Of a stretch of DNA of 64,000 nt, positions 19,188 through 52,881 are shown one piece after another (position 1 is the stretch's first letter; every line of letters starts with the position of its first letter). The stretch lies in NCBI GenBank assembly GCA_017883235.1, contig JADGNY010000003.1, positions 62,001 through 126,000 on the forward strand. The letters run 5' to 3'. The DNA comes from Thermoanaerobaculia bacterium (GTDB lineage Bacteria > Acidobacteriota > Thermoanaerobaculia > Gp7-AA8). The notes below the pieces were generated by a model. It searched no databases. It saw only the letters and a program-made list of their open reading frames with translations, and was not told the origin of the DNA. Both the position numbers and the translations under genes were made by a program.

Positions 19188-19538
19188 CTAACTGCCTCGA
19201 TACGTTGAATATCCGTACGGGCTCAACAACAGTGGCACGTGATAGTGCTGTGCGCTCTGCTCGACCATGAACTCGATCACCACGCGCGGGAAAAAGCCCT
19301 TGGGATTGTAGGAACCGGTGTCGAACGAGATGCGATACAACCCGGGCTCGGGCATCTCGGATACGAGCTTCAACCGGCCGTCGGAATCGGTTGAGCCCGT
19401 CGCGATGATTACCCATCCTTCGCGATCCATCTGCGGTTCCCGTGGAGGCGCCATGAAGGGGCCGTGACTGAGCGTGACGCGTACGCCGGCAGCAGGCCGG
19501 CCCTTCGCAGTGTCGAGAATGTGTGTCGAGATTCCCAT
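19188..19538 (-). CDS. uraH: 5-hydroxyisourate hydrolase (transthyretin-like)
   Basis: 116 residues, the family length. It hydrolyses 5-hydroxyisourate, the product of urate oxidation, to OHCU. Signatures are the N-terminal ISTHILDTAKGRPAAGV, RISFDTGSY, FFPRVVIEF and the diagnostic C terminus YSTYRGS. The start overlaps the stop of the allantoicase-OHCU decarboxylase gene by one base, so it is the last gene of a coupled three-gene operon. Confidence 0.95.
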   Translation of the reverse strand: MGISTHILDTAKGRPAAGVRVTLSHGPFMAPPREPQMDREGWVIIATGSTDSDGRLKLVSEMPEPGLYRISFDTGSYNPKGFFPRVVIEFMVEQSAQHYHVPLLLSPYGYSTYRGS

Positions 19539-21016
19539 CAGCCTACCAGTTTCATCAGCCGCAGCTTTGTAATCTTCATCTGCTCTTCCGCCGCCACGCG
19601 CAGTTCATCCTCGGGAGAGTTTTCCAGCCGCTGCCAGGCCATGGCCAGCATCTCGTCGGCGCTGCGGCCGGTGGCGCAGACGATGTAGATATGGCCGAAG
19701 CGCGCCTCGTATTCGCGGTTCGCCGCGGCCAGCGCGTCCATGCTCTCGCTCGACGCCGAGGCCATGCCCGACTGTTCCTGCTGCGCCCACTTCGAACCGG
19801 AACGGTCGCCGATGCGCGGATGCGCGGCGAACGCTTCGCGCCAGTCCTCCGCAGCGAGACCTTTCCAGATCCCTTCCGCTTCACGAATGAGATCGCTCCA
19901 CGAAGGGAAGGGGCGCGCGGCGATCATGCGCCGCACCCATTCGCTCGAACCGCAGCAGTTGCGCAACTGCGCGGCGGCGGGATCGCCGTAGAGCGTGTTG
20001 ATGTATCGGGCAACCGCATCTCCGCGGCCTTCATCCGTAGCCACGCCATATACGCGCAGCCGGCTGACGCCGCCGTCGGGAAAAACATTGAGGCGCAGGT
20101 GGGTTACCGGGCCGCTCTGCGCCAGCTCGTCGATGAAGATGTGCCGCGTGTGCGCCTGCAGCTTTGTACGTGGCAATATCTCGAACCATTCAGCGTCGAC
20201 GATCGCTCCCGCGAGCGCAAACGCGCGCGTCCCGTCGATCGAGCAGGCGTCGGGGTAGTTCCCTTTGAAGTGATTCGTGTCGATCTCGACGCGCCGCACC
20301 GAACCCTCGGCGGCGAGCTGCACGATGACCCAATCGTTTCCGGGACCGCGTCTCCGCTTCGTCTCCCAACCGTCGCTCATATTGACGGCGCGGCCGGGCA
20401 TGATCAGGTTGTGCTTCGGCCCGAAGAACATGTCGCTGCACGCCAGCACATCAGCTCCATGCTCCGCGGCCGCCAGGTCGGTCTCGATCGACAACCCGCC
20501 TTCGCGCCGCCACTCCGGAACGACCTCACCGTGAACGCGCAGCCGCGCCACGCCGCCGTCGGGGTAGATGTGCAGACGCAGATGAGTGAACGCGTACGGT
20601 GCGTCGATCGCGAACAGATTCTCGCTGTCGCCGCGCAATTCGGACTTCGGAAGGATCTCGATCCAGTTCGCGGCGAGCAACGAGTCGGTGTCGCTCTCCG
20701 GCCTTGCCTCACATGCCTCGATCGAACAATGCGACGGATAGTTGCCGCGAAAGAACGCCGTATCGACGACGACGCCGCGAACCACACCGCGAACGCCGAG
20801 ACGGATGATGGCGAAGTCATGGCCGGGAGTCCGCTTGCGGCGGCTCTCCCATCCATCCATCCATTTGCCGCGGTTGGTGTACTCGTGTTCCTTCCAGACC
20901 GGTTTGGTGGGACGGAGGAGGTTTTCCTTCTCGGCAAAGTAGTCATCCGTCGCGTACAGAACCGAGCCGCCGAGGCGTTCGGAAGCGAGGTTGAGAGCCT
21001 CGCGAAAATCACTCAT
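19538..21016 (-). CDS. Allantoicase fused to OHCU decarboxylase
   Basis: 492 residues from the ATG at 21014-21016, which overlaps the allantoinase stop (ATGA); a longer open frame upstream is antisense-like and rejected. Residues 1 to about 325 are two allantoicase repeats: GKWMDGWESRRKRTPGHDF...FFRGNYP and SDGWETKRRRGPGNDW...HFKGNYPD, each with LRLHIYPDGGVARLRV-type ends. Residues about 330-492 are an OHCU decarboxylase with the catalytic-type HPRIGDRSG motif and ANREYEARFGHIYIVCATG. The protein would perform the third and fifth steps of urate breakdown, with allantoinase between them encoded immediately upstream. A fusion of non-consecutive steps is unusual. Confidence 0.93.
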   Translation of the reverse strand: MSDFREALNLASERLGGSVLYATDDYFAEKENLLRPTKPVWKEHEYTNRGKWMDGWESRRKRTPGHDFAIIRLGVRGVVRGVVVDTAFFRGNYPSHCSIEACEARPESDTDSLLAANWIEILPKSELRGDSENLFAIDAPYAFTHLRLHIYPDGGVARLRVHGEVVPEWRREGGLSIETDLAAAEHGADVLACSDMFFGPKHNLIMPGRAVNMSDGWETKRRRGPGNDWVIVQLAAEGSVRRVEIDTNHFKGNYPDACSIDGTRAFALAGAIVDAEWFEILPRTKLQAHTRHIFIDELAQSGPVTHLRLNVFPDGGVSRLRVYGVATDEGRGDAVARYINTLYGDPAAAQLRNCCGSSEWVRRMIAARPFPSWSDLIREAEGIWKGLAAEDWREAFAAHPRIGDRSGSKWAQQEQSGMASASSESMDALAAANREYEARFGHIYIVCATGRSADEMLAMAWQRLENSPEDELRVAAEEQMKITKLRLMKLVG

Positions 21017-22377
21017 CGCCGGATCCACTCCCCAATCGCATTTCCAAGATGCCGCCCATCCTCCCACACCTTGTGGCCGCGAACGTACGTCGCGTGGACG
21101 ACGCCGGTGAGCGTTTCGCCAGCGTATGGCGTCACCTTGTGGCGGTGCTGCACGTGCTCGGTCCGGACGACGAAACGCGCCTCGGGATCGAAGACGATGA
21201 TGTCCGCGTCGTAGCCGGCGGCAAGCGTTCCCTTGCGGCCGCCGAGGCCTGCGAGTTTCGCCGGGCCGGTAGTCATCAGATCGACGATTTTCGCGAAGGC
21301 AATGCCGCGCCGTTTGGCCTCGGTCCAGACGATCGGCAGTCCGAACTGCAGCGAGGCGATGCCGCCCCACGCCCGGGCGATGTCGCCTTCCTCCATCCGC
21401 TTCAACTCCGGCGTACACGGCGAGTGGTCGCTGACGATGGCGGTGAGAAGTCCTTCACCAATGCCGCGCCACAGTTCCTCGCGGTTGGCGTGGCCGCGGA
21501 TCGGAGGCGCGCACTTGAACTCCGTCGCTCCGTCGGGAACGGATTCGGCGTCGAAGTAGAGGTAGTGTGGCGTGGTCTCGGCGGTCAGCGACACGTGCGC
21601 GTCGCGGGCGCGACGTAGCGCTTCGAGCCCGTTCGCCGAGGAGAGATGGACGATGTGCGCGTGCGTTCCCGTCTTCCGGGCCAGTTCATAGACGAGCGCG
21701 ATCGCTTCATCCTCCGCGACGCCCGGACGGGTGGCGAGGTAGCTCGCGTAGGAACGATCGTCGCCGCCCGGCGCGTGGATGTGTTCCGGCAACTCCGCGT
21801 GGACGAGCAGCGGGGCGCCGGTTCCGTGCAGGGCATTCAGCGCTTCTTCCATTCCGCGGGCATCGAGATGGCCAAACTCCGGCACTCCCGATTCGACCAT
21901 GAAGCATTTGAAGCCGCAGGCCCCGGCATCGAGCATCGCCTGAAGCTCGCCGGCGTTTCCCGGCACCGCGCCGCCCCAGAGCGCGACATCGACGCGGCAC
22001 TTGCCATGGAGGGCATGAACTTTCGCTTGAAGCGATGCCACCGAGGTCGTCGGCGGGATCGAGTTCAGCGGCATGTCGACGATCGTCGTCACCCCGCCCG
22101 CGGCCGCCGCGCGCGTGGCCGTCTCGAACCCCTCCCACTCCGTCCGCCCCGGCTCGTTGACGTGCACATGCGAGTCGACGATGCCCGGCATGAGGGTCAG
22201 GTCACCGTAGTCTTCGACGGGTTCGGCGACATCGTCGAAATCACCGAGGCGTTCGATCAGGTGCCCGTTGACGTGAATCGTCGCCGGCCGGATGCCCGTC
22301 GGCGTGACGACATTACGGCTGCGGAGGATCACGCGGCGGATGATAACGGCAAGTTTGCCTGGCAGGCTGCGAGACAT
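21013..22377 (-). CDS. allB: Allantoinase
   Basis: 454 residues from the ATG at 22377; an in-frame extension of 15 codons reaches into a tandem repeat and is unlikely. It is a cyclic amidohydrolase converting allantoin to allantoate. The metal site is complete: DSHVHVNEPGRTEWEGF (HxH), GFKCFM (bridging Lys), LVHAEL, THAHIVHLSS and IVSDHSPC (Asp). The end overlaps the following allantoicase start by four bases. A 456-base noncoding gap with repeats separates it from the xanthine dehydrogenase gene upstream, so it may have its own promoter. Confidence 0.95.
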   Translation of the reverse strand: MSRSLPGKLAVIIRRVILRSRNVVTPTGIRPATIHVNGHLIERLGDFDDVAEPVEDYGDLTLMPGIVDSHVHVNEPGRTEWEGFETATRAAAAGGVTTIVDMPLNSIPPTTSVASLQAKVHALHGKCRVDVALWGGAVPGNAGELQAMLDAGACGFKCFMVESGVPEFGHLDARGMEEALNALHGTGAPLLVHAELPEHIHAPGGDDRSYASYLATRPGVAEDEAIALVYELARKTGTHAHIVHLSSANGLEALRRARDAHVSLTAETTPHYLYFDAESVPDGATEFKCAPPIRGHANREELWRGIGEGLLTAIVSDHSPCTPELKRMEEGDIARAWGGIASLQFGLPIVWTEAKRRGIAFAKIVDLMTTGPAKLAGLGGRKGTLAAGYDADIIVFDPEARFVVRTEHVQHRHKVTPYAGETLTGVVHATYVRGHKVWEDGRHLGNAIGEWIRR

Positions 22378-22406
22378 ACCGGCCGGCTGACCACCAATTT
22401 GGGAAC

Positions 22407-22682
22407 GCTCGCGAGCGGTCAAACGACCGCTCGGTTGCGGTCAACGAAGGCTCGCGTGCGGTTGACGAACGCTCGTGAGCGGTCAAACGACCGCTCGGTT
22501 GCGGTTAACGAAGGCTCGTTAGCGGTCAACGAACGTTCGTGAGCGGTCGAACGACCGCTCGGTCGCGGTCAACGAAGGCTCGTGAGCGGTGAACGACCGC
22601 TCGTGAGCGGTCAACGAAGGCTCGTTAGCGGTCAACGAACACTCGCGTGCGGTCAACGACCGCTCGGGTGAGGTTGATGAAC
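22407..22682. repeat. Tandem repeat array A: 13 copies of a 21/22-base unit
   Basis: Thirteen head-to-tail copies spanning 276 bases, ten of 21 and three of 22 bases. The core is GCTCGTGAGCGGTCAACG followed by A and two variable bases. Copies differ at a few positions (GCTCGG, GCTCGT and GCTCGC starts; AACGAAG, AACGAAC or AACGACC ends). The unit contains a partial palindrome, GAGCGGTC...GACCGCTC in adjacent copies. The changes in unit length shift the reading frame, so it is not coding despite open frames. It lies between allB and xdhB. A related array is at 52625-52881. Confidence 0.9.
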
Positions 22683-22833
22683 CTGACCGAGGGGTGGGCA
22701 ATGGCAAGGAAGTGGATATGCGTTAAACGTTGAACATAAAAGACTTCCGCCATTTCTTTCAACATTCAACACTGAACATTCAACCTTCAACATTCCGATT
22801 TTACCCGGTCTGCCGCTTCCGGCCGTGTTCTGG
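22683..22833. other. Noncoding gap with short ATTCAAC/GAACATT repeats
   Basis: Between array A and the xdhB stop. It contains an AT-rich stretch at about 22727-22800 with several overlapping copies of CAACATTCAAC and GAACATTCAAC, and a facing GTTGAAC. No gene, promoter or terminator could be recognised. Confidence 0.6.
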
Positions 22834-25170
22834 TCACGGCTGCGGCGCCGCCACTTCGCGAGCATCGGTATCCCGCGCGGTCCGCCGGTACGCCGTCATT
22901 CGCATCAGGATCTCCTCCCCGGTCGCCGGTGCGTGGAGCATCGGGATCTCGCCGCCGCTGAGATACGACATCGCGTTCTTCACCGCGATCCAGACGGAGA
23001 TGGCCAGGACCAGCGGAGGCTCGCCGGTCGCTTTGCTGGAGCGGATGTTCAGAGCGTTCTCGGCGTCGATCCAGTCGACGTTGAAGACCGGGGGCACGTC
23101 TTGAATATTCGGGATCTTGTATGTCGTCGGCGAGTGCGAGAGGAGGTTGCCCCTGGCGTCGTAGCGCAGCTCCTCGTTCGTCAGCCAGCCCATCCCCTGG
23201 ATGAATGCGCCGGTGATCTGGCCGCGGTCGATGCCGGGGTTGATCGGCTTGCCGATGTCCATCAGCAGATCGCTACGCAGTACTTGCATCATGCCGGTGA
23301 AGCGATCGATCTCGATCTCCGAGATCGCCGTCCCCTGCGTGAAGTAGAGGAACGGCGCGCCGCAGCCTTTGTCCGCATCCCACTCGAGGCCCTGCGTCGA
23401 ATAGAACCCGCGCTCGCCGACGGAGACCCGCTCGAGGTGGCACATCTTCACTAGCGCGGCGAAGGGAACGCGCGGCTCGGGCACGCGGCGATCGAAGACT
23501 TCGCCGTTCTCGAAAACGACCTCGTCGACGGATGGCTCGACGGAGGCAACGCGGCCGAAGTACTCCGCGGCGACGCCGGCCATGCGCGCGCGAATCTTCC
23601 TGCATGCATCGGCGGCCGCGCTGCCGTTGAGGTCCGCGCCACTGGAGGCGGCGGTGGCGGAGGTGTTGTTGTTCTTCTCGGTCGACGTCGGCATCAGCAG
23701 GACGTGCTCGGCATCGACCCCGAGCTCGTCGGCCACGATCTGGCGGATCTTCGTGTTGACGCCCTGACCCATCTCGGTCGCGCCGGTCGACACCTGCACC
23801 GAACCATCGAGATAGACGTTGACGAGGGCGTTGGCCTGATTGAGGAACTTGGTGTTGAACGAGATGCCGAACTTCACCGCCGTGCAGGCGATGCCGCGGA
23901 GGTGTGTGTGGGACGTTGCATTGAAGCGGGCGACATCCGCGACGCGCGCCCGATAGTCGCCGCGCTCGGCGATCTCGTCGAAGAGGTGGGGCAGATGATT
24001 GCTACGGACGACCTGCCCGTACGGCGTGATGTTGCGATCGTCGATCCCGTAGCAGTTACGGCGTCGGACTTCCAAAGGATCGATCTTCAGCAGGACGGCG
24101 ATTTCTTCGAGGATGTTCTCGATGGTGGCGATTCCCTGCGGCCCGCCGAAGCCGCGGAAGGCGGTGTTGGGCGGATAGTTCGTCCGGCAGACCGTGCCGC
24201 GGATCAGAGCGTTCGGCAGGTAGTAGGCGTTGTCGGCGTGCGTCAGCGCACGTCCGAGAACCGATGTCGAGAGATCGGCGAAGGCGCCGCCATCGGAGTA
24301 GAAATCGATCCGAGCGCCGGTGATGACGCCGTCGTCATCGAAGGCGACCTTGTAATCGTTCTGGAACGGATGGCGTCCGCCGGTGACGCACATGTCGTCG
24401 TCTTTGCTGTAAGCGATGCGCGCCGGACGTTTGAGCTTGTGCGCCACGAGCGCAGCGATGGCGGCAGGATGCGTGGCCTGACACTCTTTTCCACCGAACC
24501 CGCCGCCCATGCGTTTCGTTATGACAGTGACTTTATTGATCGGCAATCCGAGGAGGTGGGCGATGACGTCCTGCACCTCGGATGGATTCTGCGTCGACGA
24601 GTGAACCGTGAGCTGGTCAAACTCGCCCGGCACCGCCAGAGCCGCCTGCGATTCGAGATAGAAATGGTCCTGCCCGCCGTTGATGAAGGTCCCCTCGAGG
24701 ATGTTTGCCGCGGACGCGAACGCCGCCTCGACGTCGCCGCGCTTGATGGTCATCGTCTTGCCGATGAACAGCCCCCGCCGCTTGGCCTCATCGATCGTGA
24801 AGACCGGCTCGAGCTCTTCGATGTCGACCTTGATCGCAGCCTTCGCCGCGCGGATGGCCGCGCGTGATTCCGCCGCCACGACGACGATCGGGTGCCCGAT
24901 GAACGACACGACATCCTCAGCCAGCAGAAACTCGTCCTGGATGATGGCGCCGAAGAGGTTGTGGTGCAGATCCCGATACGTGAAGAGATGCGCGAACGAT
25001 CCGGCGTCACCGAAATCGATCCCGCGGATCCGCCCATGCGCGACCGGCGACCAGACGAAATCGACGATCAGCTCCCCGCGCAGCGGCGCGACATCGTCGA
25101 CGTAGACCGACTCGCCGCTGACGTGGCCGACCGCGGAATCGTGGGGGATGTTCTTTCCGACCGACGGCAT
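22834..25170 (-). CDS. xdhB: Xanthine dehydrogenase, molybdopterin-binding subunit
   Basis: 778 residues from the ATG at 25170 (MPSVGKNIPHDSAVGHV), the usual family start; an upstream ATG at 25230 is possible. Molybdenum-cofactor signatures are present: RMGGGFGGKECQ, RTNYPPNTAFRGFGGPQG, EMGQGVNTKIRQI and the catalytic Glu in KATGEPPLVLA. The enzyme oxidises hypoxanthine and xanthine to urate, feeding PuuD and the allantoin genes in this cluster. The FAD and 2Fe-2S domains that must accompany this subunit are not encoded next to it or elsewhere in the window. XdhC for cofactor maturation is at 14688. Confidence 0.92.
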   Translation of the reverse strand: MPSVGKNIPHDSAVGHVSGESVYVDDVAPLRGELIVDFVWSPVAHGRIRGIDFGDAGSFAHLFTYRDLHHNLFGAIIQDEFLLAEDVVSFIGHPIVVVAAESRAAIRAAKAAIKVDIEELEPVFTIDEAKRRGLFIGKTMTIKRGDVEAAFASAANILEGTFINGGQDHFYLESQAALAVPGEFDQLTVHSSTQNPSEVQDVIAHLLGLPINKVTVITKRMGGGFGGKECQATHPAAIAALVAHKLKRPARIAYSKDDDMCVTGGRHPFQNDYKVAFDDDGVITGARIDFYSDGGAFADLSTSVLGRALTHADNAYYLPNALIRGTVCRTNYPPNTAFRGFGGPQGIATIENILEEIAVLLKIDPLEVRRRNCYGIDDRNITPYGQVVRSNHLPHLFDEIAERGDYRARVADVARFNATSHTHLRGIACTAVKFGISFNTKFLNQANALVNVYLDGSVQVSTGATEMGQGVNTKIRQIVADELGVDAEHVLLMPTSTEKNNNTSATAASSGADLNGSAAADACRKIRARMAGVAAEYFGRVASVEPSVDEVVFENGEVFDRRVPEPRVPFAALVKMCHLERVSVGERGFYSTQGLEWDADKGCGAPFLYFTQGTAISEIEIDRFTGMMQVLRSDLLMDIGKPINPGIDRGQITGAFIQGMGWLTNEELRYDARGNLLSHSPTTYKIPNIQDVPPVFNVDWIDAENALNIRSSKATGEPPLVLAISVWIAVKNAMSYLSGGEIPMLHAPATGEEILMRMTAYRRTARDTDAREVAAPQP

Positions 25171-25365: not shown

Positions 25366-25800
25366 TTACTGGTTGCCTTCGCCGGCGGTGTTCGATCCGC
25401 CGTTGCTCTTCGCTTCGACCTTCCCGCTATCGCCGACATTCGGCATGACGTTGGAGATCGCGTGACTCACCTTGCTGATCACGCTGCGCGCGCCGGCGAG
25501 ACGGCTGGCCTTCTTCTTCGGGGCAGCTTTCTTGGCAGGAGCTTTCTTCGCGGGCGCCTTCTTGACTGGAGCCTTCTTCGCAGCTTTCTTGGCAGGAGCC
25601 TTCTTCGCTGGGGCCTTCTTCGCGGCTTTCTTTGAAGACACCTTCTTCGATGCGGCGCTGCGCTTGGCGGGCGCTTTCTTCGCGGCCTTCTTGGCCGGCT
25701 TCTTGGCGGCAGCCTTCTTCGCTGGAGCCTTCTTGGACGACTTTGCGGCCTTCTTCGCGGCGGGCTTCTTCGCGGACTTCTTGGATTTCTTGGCAGCCAT
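25366..25800 (-). CDS. Histone H1-like Lys/Ala/Pro-rich DNA-binding protein
   Basis: 144 residues from the ATG at 25800, supported by AAGGAGAG upstream; the longer open frame is rejected. Residues 1 to about 105 are repeats of KKAPAKKA, KKAAKK and similar, resembling the C-terminal tail of eukaryotic H1 and bacterial H1-like or AlgP-type proteins that compact DNA. The last 40 residues are not repetitive (SRLAGARSVISKVSHAISNV) and may form a short amphipathic helix. It is transcribed divergently from the PBP gene, with about 100 bases between them. Confidence 0.85.
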   Translation of the reverse strand: MAAKKSKKSAKKPAAKKAAKSSKKAPAKKAAAKKPAKKAAKKAPAKRSAASKKVSSKKAAKKAPAKKAPAKKAAKKAPVKKAPAKKAPAKKAAPKKKASRLAGARSVISKVSHAISNVMPNVGDSGKVEAKSNGGSNTAGEGNQ

Positions 25801-25903
25801 GGATTCTCTCCTTTTCAAAACTGTAGACGTGGGGAGCCGTACGTTTGAAAGAAAATTTCTGCTGCGTGGCAACTGCGTTGCACAAAATTCAATGTAGACG
25901 AAG

Positions 25904-28078
25904 ATGTCGCGATTGTCACGCACGCATCACGTACCACGATGGCTTATTCGAACGATTGGCGCGATCGCGATCATTGCCTTCGTCGCCGCCGAGGCGTTCT
26001 CGATCTACATCTTCATCCTCAACCGGAGGCTCACGCGCGAGCTCGTGAACCACGCATGGCGCGAGCCGACCATCATCGTCTCCGCCGCGCACCAGCGGCC
26101 GGTGCGCGTGGCGGCGTTGTACGGCGTCGACTGGCGCATCACCCCTCCGGTGGCGCTTCGCTCGCTCCCCGATCACGTATCGCGCGCCTTCCTGGCCGCG
26201 GAAGACGTGCGCTTCCATCATCACATCGGCATCGATCCGATCGGCATGGTGCGCGCACTGTTCACGAACATCCGCGCGGGAGGCATTGCCGCCGGCGGCT
26301 CGACCATCGATCAGCAGATCATCAAGACGCGCTTCCTCTCCCAGGAGCGGACCTGGCGCCGCAAGATCACGGAGATCATCCTGGCAATTCTGCTGGACGC
26401 CCGCATGCCGAAGAACGAGATCTTCGAGGTCTACCTCAACGACGTTTACCTCGGCCACAGCGGCGGGAAGCCGATTCTCGGGGTCGACGAAGCATCCCGG
26501 CTCTACTTCGACAAGCCGCCGTCGGAGCTTCGGGTCGACGAAGCCGCCGTCCTGGCAGGGATGATCCGGGCGCCGAACCGCGACACGCCCGACAAGCACC
26601 CCGACGTCGCCCGCGCGCGGCGCGACGCCATCCTCGCCGTCATGCGCGATCACGGCTGGATCGACGATGCCCAATTCTCAGCGGCAAAGGCACATGACGT
26701 CGAATTCAGCGGCGGCGAGATCCCGCGGACTCCGTATCCGTTCTACCTCCGCGCCCTTCGCGCCGGCATCGTGAAGGAAATCGGGGTCCGTCCCGTGATC
26801 GAAGGCGGACTGACGATCGTCTGCGAAATGGACCCGGACGCGCAACGCAACGCCGAGCGCGTCGCCGCCCGCGCCCCCGCCCAGCTCGAAGCAACCCATT
26901 CGTGGCTCCGCGCGCAGGCCCGAAGCGAGCCGCTGCAGATCGCGCTGCTTTCCGTCGATCCACGCAGCGGCGGGGTCCGTGCGCTCGTTGGCGGCAGCGA
27001 CTACAACGTCTCGCCGTTCGACCGCACTTCGGCGATGCATCGCCAGCCCGGCTCGGCGTTCAAGACCTTCGCCTACCTTGCTGCCATCGCCTCGAAGAAA
27101 GCGACGACCGCGTCGCTGCTGCTCGATGCGCCGATCAGCATCGCCGTCAACGGAAACGAAACATGGGAGCCGCACAACTACGACGACCGCTATCGAGGAC
27201 GGGTGTCTCTGCGCGAGGCCTTCGAGCACTCGCTGAACGTCCCCACCGTACGGCTCTCCGAGGACATCGGCGTGGCCCGCGTCGCCAGCACGGCGGAGAA
27301 ATTCGGGTTCGAAGAGAAATTCGCACGCATCCCGGCGCTGCCGCTCGGTGTGACCGAGGTCTCGATGCGCGAGCTGACGGCGGCGTACACGCCGTTCCCC
27401 AACCTCGGCATCCGCGTCGAGCCGTTCCTCCTGCGCGAGGTGCGTGACCGCGCGGGAAAGAGGTTGTACGCGCATGAGCTCGAGCAGAAACGCGTCGCTG
27501 ATGCCGCCCCCACGTACGTCATCCACACGCTGCTACGCGGCGTCGTGCAGCGCGGCACGGCATCGCGCCTCAAGCGCTACGGCCTCGGCTACGTCGCCGG
27601 CAAGACCGGCACGACGAGCGATTACCGTGATGCATGGTTCGTCGGCTACACCGCCGACATGGTGACAAGCGTCTGGGTCGGCTTCGACCATGGTGCACCA
27701 CTGCGTCTCTCGTCGGGAGAGGCGGCCATCCCGATCTGGGGCGCGTACATGAGCTCCATCCCGCATCTGCGCGGCGAGCCGCGGCCGCCCGCCGGCGTGA
27801 CCTTCCGCGACATCGATCCGGAGAGCGGCATGCTCTGGCAGGACGGCTGCCCCGGTCCCCTCCACGAAGTCTTCCTCGCCGGTACCGCGCCGGCGAACCG
27901 GTGTCCGGCTGGCTTCTTCGGCGGCATCATCCGCAGCGTCTTCTTCAGCCGCGGCAACTTCGACGAGCCGCCCGCCATCACGCTCGAACAGTTCCGCAAG
28001 TGGGCCAACGACGTCGACCGCAGCCGCCGCGAGGTGGAGGGGGCGTGGGGTAGGTTGAAGAAAATCTTCGGGAACTGA
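25904..28078 (+). CDS. Class A penicillin-binding protein (PBP1)
   Basis: 724 residues. An N-terminal membrane anchor (IGAIAIIAFVAAEAFSIYIF, about residues 18-37) is followed by a GT51 glycosyltransferase domain with FLAAEDVRFHHHIGID (catalytic Glu), GGSTIDQQIIKT, RKITEIILAILLD and KNEIFEVYLNDVYLG. The transpeptidase domain then carries the three penicillin-binding motifs: SxxK in QPGSAFKTFAY, SxN in EHSLNVPT, and KTG in GKTGTTSDYRDAWFVGY. It polymerises and cross-links peptidoglycan at the inner membrane. A short Cys-containing tail follows the transpeptidase core. Confidence 0.94.
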   Translation: MSRLSRTHHVPRWLIRTIGAIAIIAFVAAEAFSIYIFILNRRLTRELVNHAWREPTIIVSAAHQRPVRVAALYGVDWRITPPVALRSLPDHVSRAFLAAEDVRFHHHIGIDPIGMVRALFTNIRAGGIAAGGSTIDQQIIKTRFLSQERTWRRKITEIILAILLDARMPKNEIFEVYLNDVYLGHSGGKPILGVDEASRLYFDKPPSELRVDEAAVLAGMIRAPNRDTPDKHPDVARARRDAILAVMRDHGWIDDAQFSAAKAHDVEFSGGEIPRTPYPFYLRALRAGIVKEIGVRPVIEGGLTIVCEMDPDAQRNAERVAARAPAQLEATHSWLRAQARSEPLQIALLSVDPRSGGVRALVGGSDYNVSPFDRTSAMHRQPGSAFKTFAYLAAIASKKATTASLLLDAPISIAVNGNETWEPHNYDDRYRGRVSLREAFEHSLNVPTVRLSEDIGVARVASTAEKFGFEEKFARIPALPLGVTEVSMRELTAAYTPFPNLGIRVEPFLLREVRDRAGKRLYAHELEQKRVADAAPTYVIHTLLRGVVQRGTASRLKRYGLGYVAGKTGTTSDYRDAWFVGYTADMVTSVWVGFDHGAPLRLSSGEAAIPIWGAYMSSIPHLRGEPRPPAGVTFRDIDPESGMLWQDGCPGPLHEVFLAGTAPANRCPAGFFGGIIRSVFFSRGNFDEPPAITLEQFRKWANDVDRSRREVEGAWGRLKKIFGN

Positions 28079-52502: not shown

Positions 52503-52624
52503 ATCCCATCCCCGAACAGAGCGACAAAATGTGGGATCGCTCTCGCGCGCTACGGCGGTAGCTCCCAAGCATCGGTTTCGAGGTAGCGAGGGTCAAGTAC
52601 AGACCACGTAAGCATCAAACCGAA

Positions 52625-52881
52625 GCTCGCGAGGGTCGAAACGAAAGCTCACGTGCATCAAAACGAAGCCTCGCGGGGGTCGAAACGATGCTCGCGTACA
52701 TCAAAACGAGGCCTCTCGATGGTCGAAACGATGCTCGCGAGGATCGAAATGAAGCTCTCGAGGGTCGAAAACGATGCTCGAGAGGGTCGAAATGAAGCTT
52801 GCGATGGTCGAAGACGTTGCTCCCGAGGATCGAAATGATGCTCGCGTACATCGAAACGAAGCTCGCGAGGGCGGGCGAGCT
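52625..52881. repeat. Tandem repeat array B: about 12 copies of a 21/22-base unit
   Basis: Head-to-tail copies of GCTCGCGAGGGTCGAAACG plus two or three bases, with variants (GCTCGCGTACATC, GCTCTCGAGGGTCG, GCTTGCGATGGTCG). Unit lengths of 21 and 22 mostly alternate, so the frame shifts and it is not coding. It aligns with the unit of array A at 22407, which shares GCTCG(T/C)GAG, GGTC and AACGA. Read in one frame the units give LARVETK-like heptads. It lies between the SufR-like gene and a broken aldehyde dehydrogenase. Confidence 0.88.

Follow-up and report, generated by a model that had tools for sequence, protein, structure and literature searches.

The window analysed in this study, a stretch of 64,000 nucleotides from a soil bacterium of the Thermoanaerobaculia, carries a tandem array (array A, no strand assigned) at 22403 to approximately 22690, between two genes of the minus strand. 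The gene at 21013–22377 belongs by Pfam to the amidohydrolase family (PF01979), and its name allB (allantoinase) was adopted from the preliminary description of this DNA; the gene at 22834–25170, xdhB, encodes a molybdopterin-binding xanthine dehydrogenase subunit with the domains MoCoBD_1, MoCoBD_2, and Ald_Xan_dh_C. Array A lies 5′ of allB on the allB strand and 3′ of xdhB, and the 456-base gap previously reported between the two genes is exact, given the chosen allB start (ATG at 22377) and the xdhB end at 22834.

The presence of 13 copies of a 21/22-base unit in this gap, as first described, was confirmed. Tandem Repeats Finder (TRF) scored array A at 284 for period 21 and 374 for period 64; when the window was shuffled 20 times with its dinucleotides kept, the top score at periods 11–69 was 72. 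Most units start with CGAACG, CGACCG, or CGAAGG, and as these three types alternate in turn, they build up a higher-order repeat of 64 bp (21 + 21 + 22 bp). The earlier statement that the copies diverged by only a few bases holds for this 64-bp repeat (TRF match rate of 87%) and less so for the 21-bp unit (76%). Similarly, the partial dyad symmetry implied by the suggestion that units can pair into hairpins does exist within the unit, but it is only modest (z = 1.7 against shuffled units). The Rfam scan of the window gave no match at gathering level.

Several other features were observed around this locus. A short 7-bp array (unit TTCAACA) adjoins array A at 22758–22795; 7-bp arrays like it occur as inverted pairs in L040 (1700–1738 and 1765–1803) and L092 (18993–19031 and 19065–19103), and seven 7-bp arrays lie in 199 kb of the genome G012, which is without the ORF family described below. 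A Lys/Ala/Pro-rich histone H1-like gene was found at 25366–25923 (minus strand; HC2 match of 32.5 bits, under the Pfam cut-off of 40), and its internal repeat accounts for the TRF rows at 25513–25782. The gene at 19541–21028 (minus strand) fuses Allantoicase repeats with an OHCU decarboxylase domain, and the adjoining 116-aa ORF at 19188–19538 is presumably HIU hydrolase-like.

A second array with a related unit had been placed 30 kb away. Such an array exists (array B, 52612–52871, no strand assigned, approximately 12 units of 21 bp), but a relationship between the two units was not supported, since arrays A and B gave no blastn match at E 1e-3 and belong to separate sequence families at E 1e-6. 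As far as these comparisons indicate, arrays A and B have only period and style in common. Array B matched 35 stretches on 19 contigs of the source genome, one of which, on contig C43, precedes an ORF of the family described below.

Placement and Diversity of the Arrays

Using blastn with array A, five strong places (array A included) and one weaker place were found in the source genome. The members of this array family elsewhere, on C244, C114, C1 (two places), and C212, have common flanks on both sides, and those at C244 and C1:114056 stand 5′ of family ORFs.

TRF on genome stretches revealed many more 21/22-bp arrays of other sequences, with higher orders of 42/43, 63/64, and 86 bp. Under a common rule, 40 arrays were counted in 1.22 Mb of the source genome. 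G002, from the same genus, had 23 in 484 kb, and G009, from the same family, had 4 in 179 kb, whereas none was present in 56 kb of G001 or 20 kb of G016, both with few ORF copies, or in 419 kb from six genomes without the ORF family (G010, G012, G018, G022, G040, and G049). The 21-type arrays occur in G000, G002, and G009, and in G001 at ORF loci. Outside the regions chosen for similarity, namely leaving out the window and seven stretches picked for matching array A, 31 arrays in 1,043,633 bases extrapolate to approximately 206 per genome, and three of these 31 lie in called genes and two partly so. In three genomes, 62 of the 69 arrays classed were intergenic. Among 63 arrays compared, 20 resembled none of the others and the remainder fell into small families; their length quartiles were 260–395 bp, with approximately 300 bp typical and few short ones, in a detection that excluded arrays below 100 bp. 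By these comparisons, the arrays are many families of unrelated sequence with the same 21/22-bp type.

Compared at the resolution of gene pairs rather than of exact junctions, two G002 arrays are missing at the corresponding places of G000, and one of the G002 inserts contains a further gene. Another dispersed repeat of 18–20 bp (CTGCGCTTCGCGCGTTGT type), often in inverted pairs, was seen in L122 (12285–12470), L141, L148, and others, and a repeat of this type fills the G000 gap where G002 carries a 21-bp array. Long 165-bp tandem repeats were seen in L055 (3202–7354). The open-licence literature gave no description of such arrays or of the element proposed below, in Thermoanaerobaculia or more broadly, and none was found in the available part of PMC3174227, which has tandem-repeat programs in its methods.

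Array A stands 5′ of allB, between two genes of one pathway, and the preliminary description took this location to matter; the array could accordingly be a cis-acting regulator or phase-variable spacer of the purine genes allB and xdhB. However, no array lies between these genes in any of the six relatives examined: xdhB and allB are adjacent in G003 and G015, separated by approximately 1.7 kb of other sequence in G002 and G012, further apart in G009, and on different contigs in G001. Array family A also occurs at unrelated places, and the overall placement of arrays tracks intergenic length (p = 0.93 for 52 arrays, a count that wrongly takes in one repeat inside the lysine-rich gene, at 25513–25656), with 31 arrays in tandem, 11 in convergent, and 10 in divergent gaps against 31.1, 10.1, and 10.8 expected. 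Absence from relatives with adjacent allB and xdhB, together with random placement elsewhere, had been named beforehand as the outcome that would speak against the importance of this location, and this is the outcome found. An operon-specific role of array A is rejected on the basis of the relatives and the genome-wide placement, array A is not specific to allB/xdhB, and we consider the regulator or spacer reading as a whole most improbable. Since solo arrays sit in the gap types as length predicts, no general role for neighbouring genes is visible, and we therefore take array A to be a copy that lacks the ORF and does nothing for allB or xdhB. On this reading, annotating it as a regulator of purine breakdown would be wrong.

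The ORF Family Linked to the Arrays

The gene family was reached through the arrays, as members of an array family have common flanks, the flanks hold an ORF, and the ORFs across array families are homologous. The source genome has 56 family matches at E 0.01, some of them fragments, and at least 13 of the 56 lie within approximately 600 bp of a contig end, as with assembly-breaking repeats. Among 60 relatives, only G000, G001, G002, G009, and G016 match the family at E 0.001, and the same five genomes, of two genera, have it among 148 genomes of the class at 1e-5. A pattern-limited scan of named genomes gave five loci, in the Thermoanaerobaculia MAG Chersky.9_17 (= G002) and the Acidobacteria gp7 MAG AA8 (= G009).

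The family protein has approximately 200 aa with a basic or Pro/Thr-rich tail, and its AlphaFold model from five sequences is mostly helical but poor (mean pLDDT 55, pTM 0.35). No convincing match to the family ORFs was found in Pfam, NCBIfam, PHROGs, PADLOC, or PDB sequences, and no DNA-binding domain was recognised in the protein. The weak matches obtained, of one member each to Pfam DUF6473 (E 0.0033), DUF2526 (0.0042), and Chap-C (0.0061) and to PADLOC DruF (0.0077), and of the profile to Bicaudal D in the PDB (E 0.07), were taken as chance. The dN/dS values of 11 ORF pairs were 0.12–0.67; we therefore regard the ORFs as genuine genes that purifying selection maintains, less strictly in several recent pairs. 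A viral origin was considered and rejected, with no relative of two sub-family alignments in viral_contigs and no relative of one family protein in phage and plasmid records.

In one sub-family, the interval between array and main ORF holds a second homologous ORF of approximately 240 aa (L040 8061–8786, L042 9061–9741, and L097 484–1215 on the minus strand; L121 7458–8186 on the plus strand), of which the one copy scanned had no Pfam match, and a comparable frame lies ahead of the main ORF in L245 and L246. The start of a second gene after the ORF in L214, L223, L229, L233, and L234 is, by eye, presumably protealysin-type metalloprotease propeptide-like.

In a 2.3-Mb sample consisting of stretches of eleven genomes, a profile search gave 15 homologues at 0–1345 bp from a 21-type array, and the array was 5′ in all 15. 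A total of 52 loci with the better-scoring matches were then examined, comprising 30 of the 56 source-genome matches and 22 from four relatives; L242, the second fragment of the L226 locus, was dropped from 53, and L195 and L218 share one array. A 21-type array lay upstream on the sense strand at 43 of the 52 loci, and a 44th (L210) was added by a second run. No array was found at L201, L202, and L215, which are cut by contig ends, and five of the 49 uncut loci were without a clear array (L206, L219, L227, L229, and L237). As background, 63 of 1299 other genes (approximately 5%) had an array within 1200 bp upstream. The comparison of 88% (43/49) for family ORFs with 5% for other genes has a nominal p of 3e-50, which overstates the difference, as arrays near the family ORFs were sought with a laxer threshold and over a somewhat greater distance than in the background count, and as the copies share ancestry; the array–ORF association is clear despite this. 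No downstream array was found at any of the 52 loci, an absence that alone is not significant (0.06).

An inverted repeat rich in GC recurs after the ORF, as shown by CGGGCGCG and CGCGCCCG, each present in 23 of 52 loci against 0.8 expected, and the predicted hairpin appears terminator-like in many copies. Recent duplicates extend from the array to 60–100 bp beyond the stop, just past the hairpin, in different surroundings; the pair L190/L191 matches at 93% over 1237 bp. Between array and ORF, GTAACCTT, which we take to be part of an ECF-promoter-like motif, occurred at 7 of 43 loci against 0.02 expected. A sigma-54 promoter upstream of the array was rejected as a common feature, being present at only 2 of 43 loci.

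A conserved leader with GAGTTGAG...GCTCCTCC, approximately 290 nt before the ORF, was found in L195, L196, L207, L209, L210, L213, L221, L226, L235, L236, and L239. The consensus structure of these 11 loci has 30 pairs, of which 14 show two-sided changes in at least one sequence, as counted with no slid or shuffled control, and the leader is predicted to be possibly a new cis-regulatory RNA. Rfam at 18 ORF loci, with E up to 0.5, returned one tRNA (L213) and otherwise only matches below the gathering score of their family.

Homologous copies occur in unrelated surroundings. Searching the ORF and inspecting the ends by eye brought to light neither a transposase nor terminal inverted repeats nor a target-site duplication, so the case for mobility rests on the dispersed copies and the missing sites, which suggest that the element is probably mobile.

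Turnover and Symmetry of the Arrays

The relative turnover of arrays, leaders, and proteins was compared in 820 pairs of 41 loci, with 60 bits taken as alike. At protein identities of at least 80%, arrays were alike in 9 of 12 pairs and leaders in all 12; at 60–80%, the counts were 2 and 18 of 29 pairs, and at 50–60%, 0 and 33 of 51 pairs. These counts indicate that the sequence of the arrays changes more quickly than that of the leader or the protein while the period is kept.

L198 and L200 have proteins 92% and leaders 89% identical, with arrays that give no blastn match. Global alignment of these two arrays gave an identity of 58–60%, against a mean of 62% for unrelated arrays, yet a score above all 15 unrelated ones. 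Two of five close pairs without a good array match by blastn (L198/L200 and L236/L239) outscore the 15 unrelated arrays, with identity no or hardly higher, and one long L198/L200 blastn alignment continues through the array region; a trace of common descent in the arrays of both pairs is possible. The arrays of proteins 73–92% identical can differ as much as unrelated arrays do, or almost as much. Because proteins that are almost the same occur with different arrays, the ORF protein is probably blind to the array sequence.

The self-complementarity of 59 units was above that of shuffled ones (mean z 1.19, 78% above 0), and dyad symmetry was weak or absent in about a fifth, with z at or below 0 in 22%. 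We infer that what is kept in the arrays is their spacing and symmetry, not their sequence. Among 39 ORF-linked arrays, the sense strand folded more stably in 20 and the antisense strand in 19 (p = 0.77). The structured RNA role raised in the preliminary description is therefore not favoured, and the lack of strand bias in RNA stability favours action as DNA; an array that works at this level, as the protein-binding array also raised there would, is our best guess. A length of 21–22 bp is approximately two turns of the DNA helix.

The same data bear on a type III toxin-antitoxin-like module, with the repeats as RNA antitoxin and the ORF as toxin. Tandem repeats 5′ of a gene of approximately 200 aa on the same strand would suit this module; however, the ORF showed no similarity to a toxin family in the libraries searched, the fold energy has no sense-strand bias, and proteins as close as 73–92% can carry the unlike arrays just described. 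In addition, the ECF-promoter-like GTAACCTT between array and ORF (7 of 43 loci) would put the array outside the mRNA there. Such a module is, in our judgement, highly improbable.

The strongest rival is an inert selfish minisatellite that changes in length by slippage or unequal exchange and hitchhikes on a duplicating gene family, with no function as DNA or RNA. It accounts for the usual higher-order repeats of 42/43, 63/64, and 86 bp, for the fast turnover of array sequence, and for arrays that are almost all intergenic in proportion to gap length, with solo arrays having no preferred place. Nevertheless, slippage alone does not predict a single period across unrelated sequences, a typical size of approximately 300 bp with few short arrays (those below 100 bp being filtered out), or a fixed position 5′ of the ORF. 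We regard the inert satellite as possible but rather unlikely.

Discussion

We propose that array A is a solo copy of an undescribed dispersed element, whose array acts as DNA via its architecture and has no job for allB/xdhB, and we give this reading an even chance of being correct. The dispersed element itself is well supported, and its mechanism is what we infer. The arrangement recurs from locus to locus, is restricted to particular genomes, and combines fast array turnover with a kept period.

Among Acidobacteriota of the Thermoanaerobaculia type, the element was found in two genera, which are related. In order, a complete copy consists of approximately 13 tandem 21/22-bp units with partial dyad symmetry, a leader, an ORF of approximately 200 aa, and often a GC-rich terminator-like hairpin, and some copies have the second ORF (approximately 240 aa) ahead of the gene for the helical, Pro/Thr-tailed protein of approximately 200 aa. 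The element would spread by copying, and the array may be a DNA platform, with two-helical-turn phasing of dyads, which a protein would recognise less by its sequence than by its spacing and symmetry. This platform could serve the element's own spread or expression, and solo arrays such as array A would be remnants or non-autonomous copies.

Alternatively, the array might be a hypervariable head, in which a 21/22-bp stretch is amplified at or after insertion to approximately 13 dyad copies, with a period that reflects the footprint of some enzyme or binding protein and solo arrays as the tracks left. We consider this improbable; if it were true, the element would be defined by a ruler and not by sequence, and each locus would get its own array sequence.

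If array A is indeed a solo copy of the proposed element, a whole class of arrays between genes of soil Acidobacteriota is part of an element in which period and place, and not sequence, are what is kept of the non-coding part, and such a part would escape ordinary similarity searches. Moreover, a gene family in many copies, with 56 matches in a single genome and no known relative, is brought to light. Judging from its sequence features, we call the arrangement categorically new, dispersed repeats as such being of a known kind.

Comparison with Known Systems

In having repeats beside a gene, the element resembles type III toxin-antitoxin systems, partition cassettes, and REPtrons, but each of these has a defining feature that the element, when tested, did not show. 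Type III toxin-antitoxin loci (ToxIN, CptIN) have tandem repeats directly upstream of a small same-strand gene, according to the available parts of PMC8860590 and PMC4627078, and repeats likewise stand 5′ on the same strand at 43 of our 52 loci (44 with L210), three of the rest being cut. The element differs in the lack of toxin homology, with no match to a ToxN/CptN/TenpN-type endoribonuclease in Pfam (49 proteins), NCBIfam, or PADLOC (11 proteins), in the lack of RNA strand bias, and in an array that is not matched to its protein. A repeat conserved with its toxin is not what was found, as arrays were alike in only 2 of 29 pairs of 60–80% identical proteins whereas leaders were alike in 18. 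Presumably, the arrays here also have more repeats than type III loci.

In partition cassettes (parC, parS, tubC, sopC), a small gene is preceded by helix-phased repeats of direct or inverted symmetry, whose sequence varies between systems, as described in the available part of PMC5016525. The element loci have a repeated site upstream of a gene in the same way, helix-phased, symmetric, and of differing sequence. The array could thus be a centromere-like (par) site with the ORF product as its binding protein, and according to the same source, systems of types Ib, II, and III have partition sites made of repeats that precede the operon and vary greatly from plasmid to plasmid. Against this, the ORFs contain no partner NTPase or known DNA-binding domain, in that no motor NTPase, ribbon-helix-helix, or winged-helix match was obtained for ORF1 (49 proteins) or one second ORF; further, dozens of copies lie on an apparent chromosome, and the arrays change while the protein stays. 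A par site is therefore a very unlikely explanation.

REP elements and REPtrons, in the available part of PMC3733652, are dispersed palindromic repeats linked to a RAYT gene, with gene-less copies elsewhere, and both the gene linkage and the gene-less copies have counterparts here. The ORF here, in contrast, is not a Y1 transposase, and no Y1_Tnp match was found in the family; Y1_Tnp genes number 9 in G000, 8 in G001, 15 in G002, 1 in G009, 7 in G012, and 8 in G018, the last two genomes being without the ORF family.

Abundant intergenic tandem repeats within one lineage are also known as the heptamer direct-repeat sets (TAACTGA) of Beggiatoaceae and cyanobacteria, which the available part of PMC4679880 describes as one 7-bp sequence standing mostly a few bases before start codons. 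The arrays described here, by contrast, have a 21/22-bp period and many sequences, and their solo copies are placed without preference.
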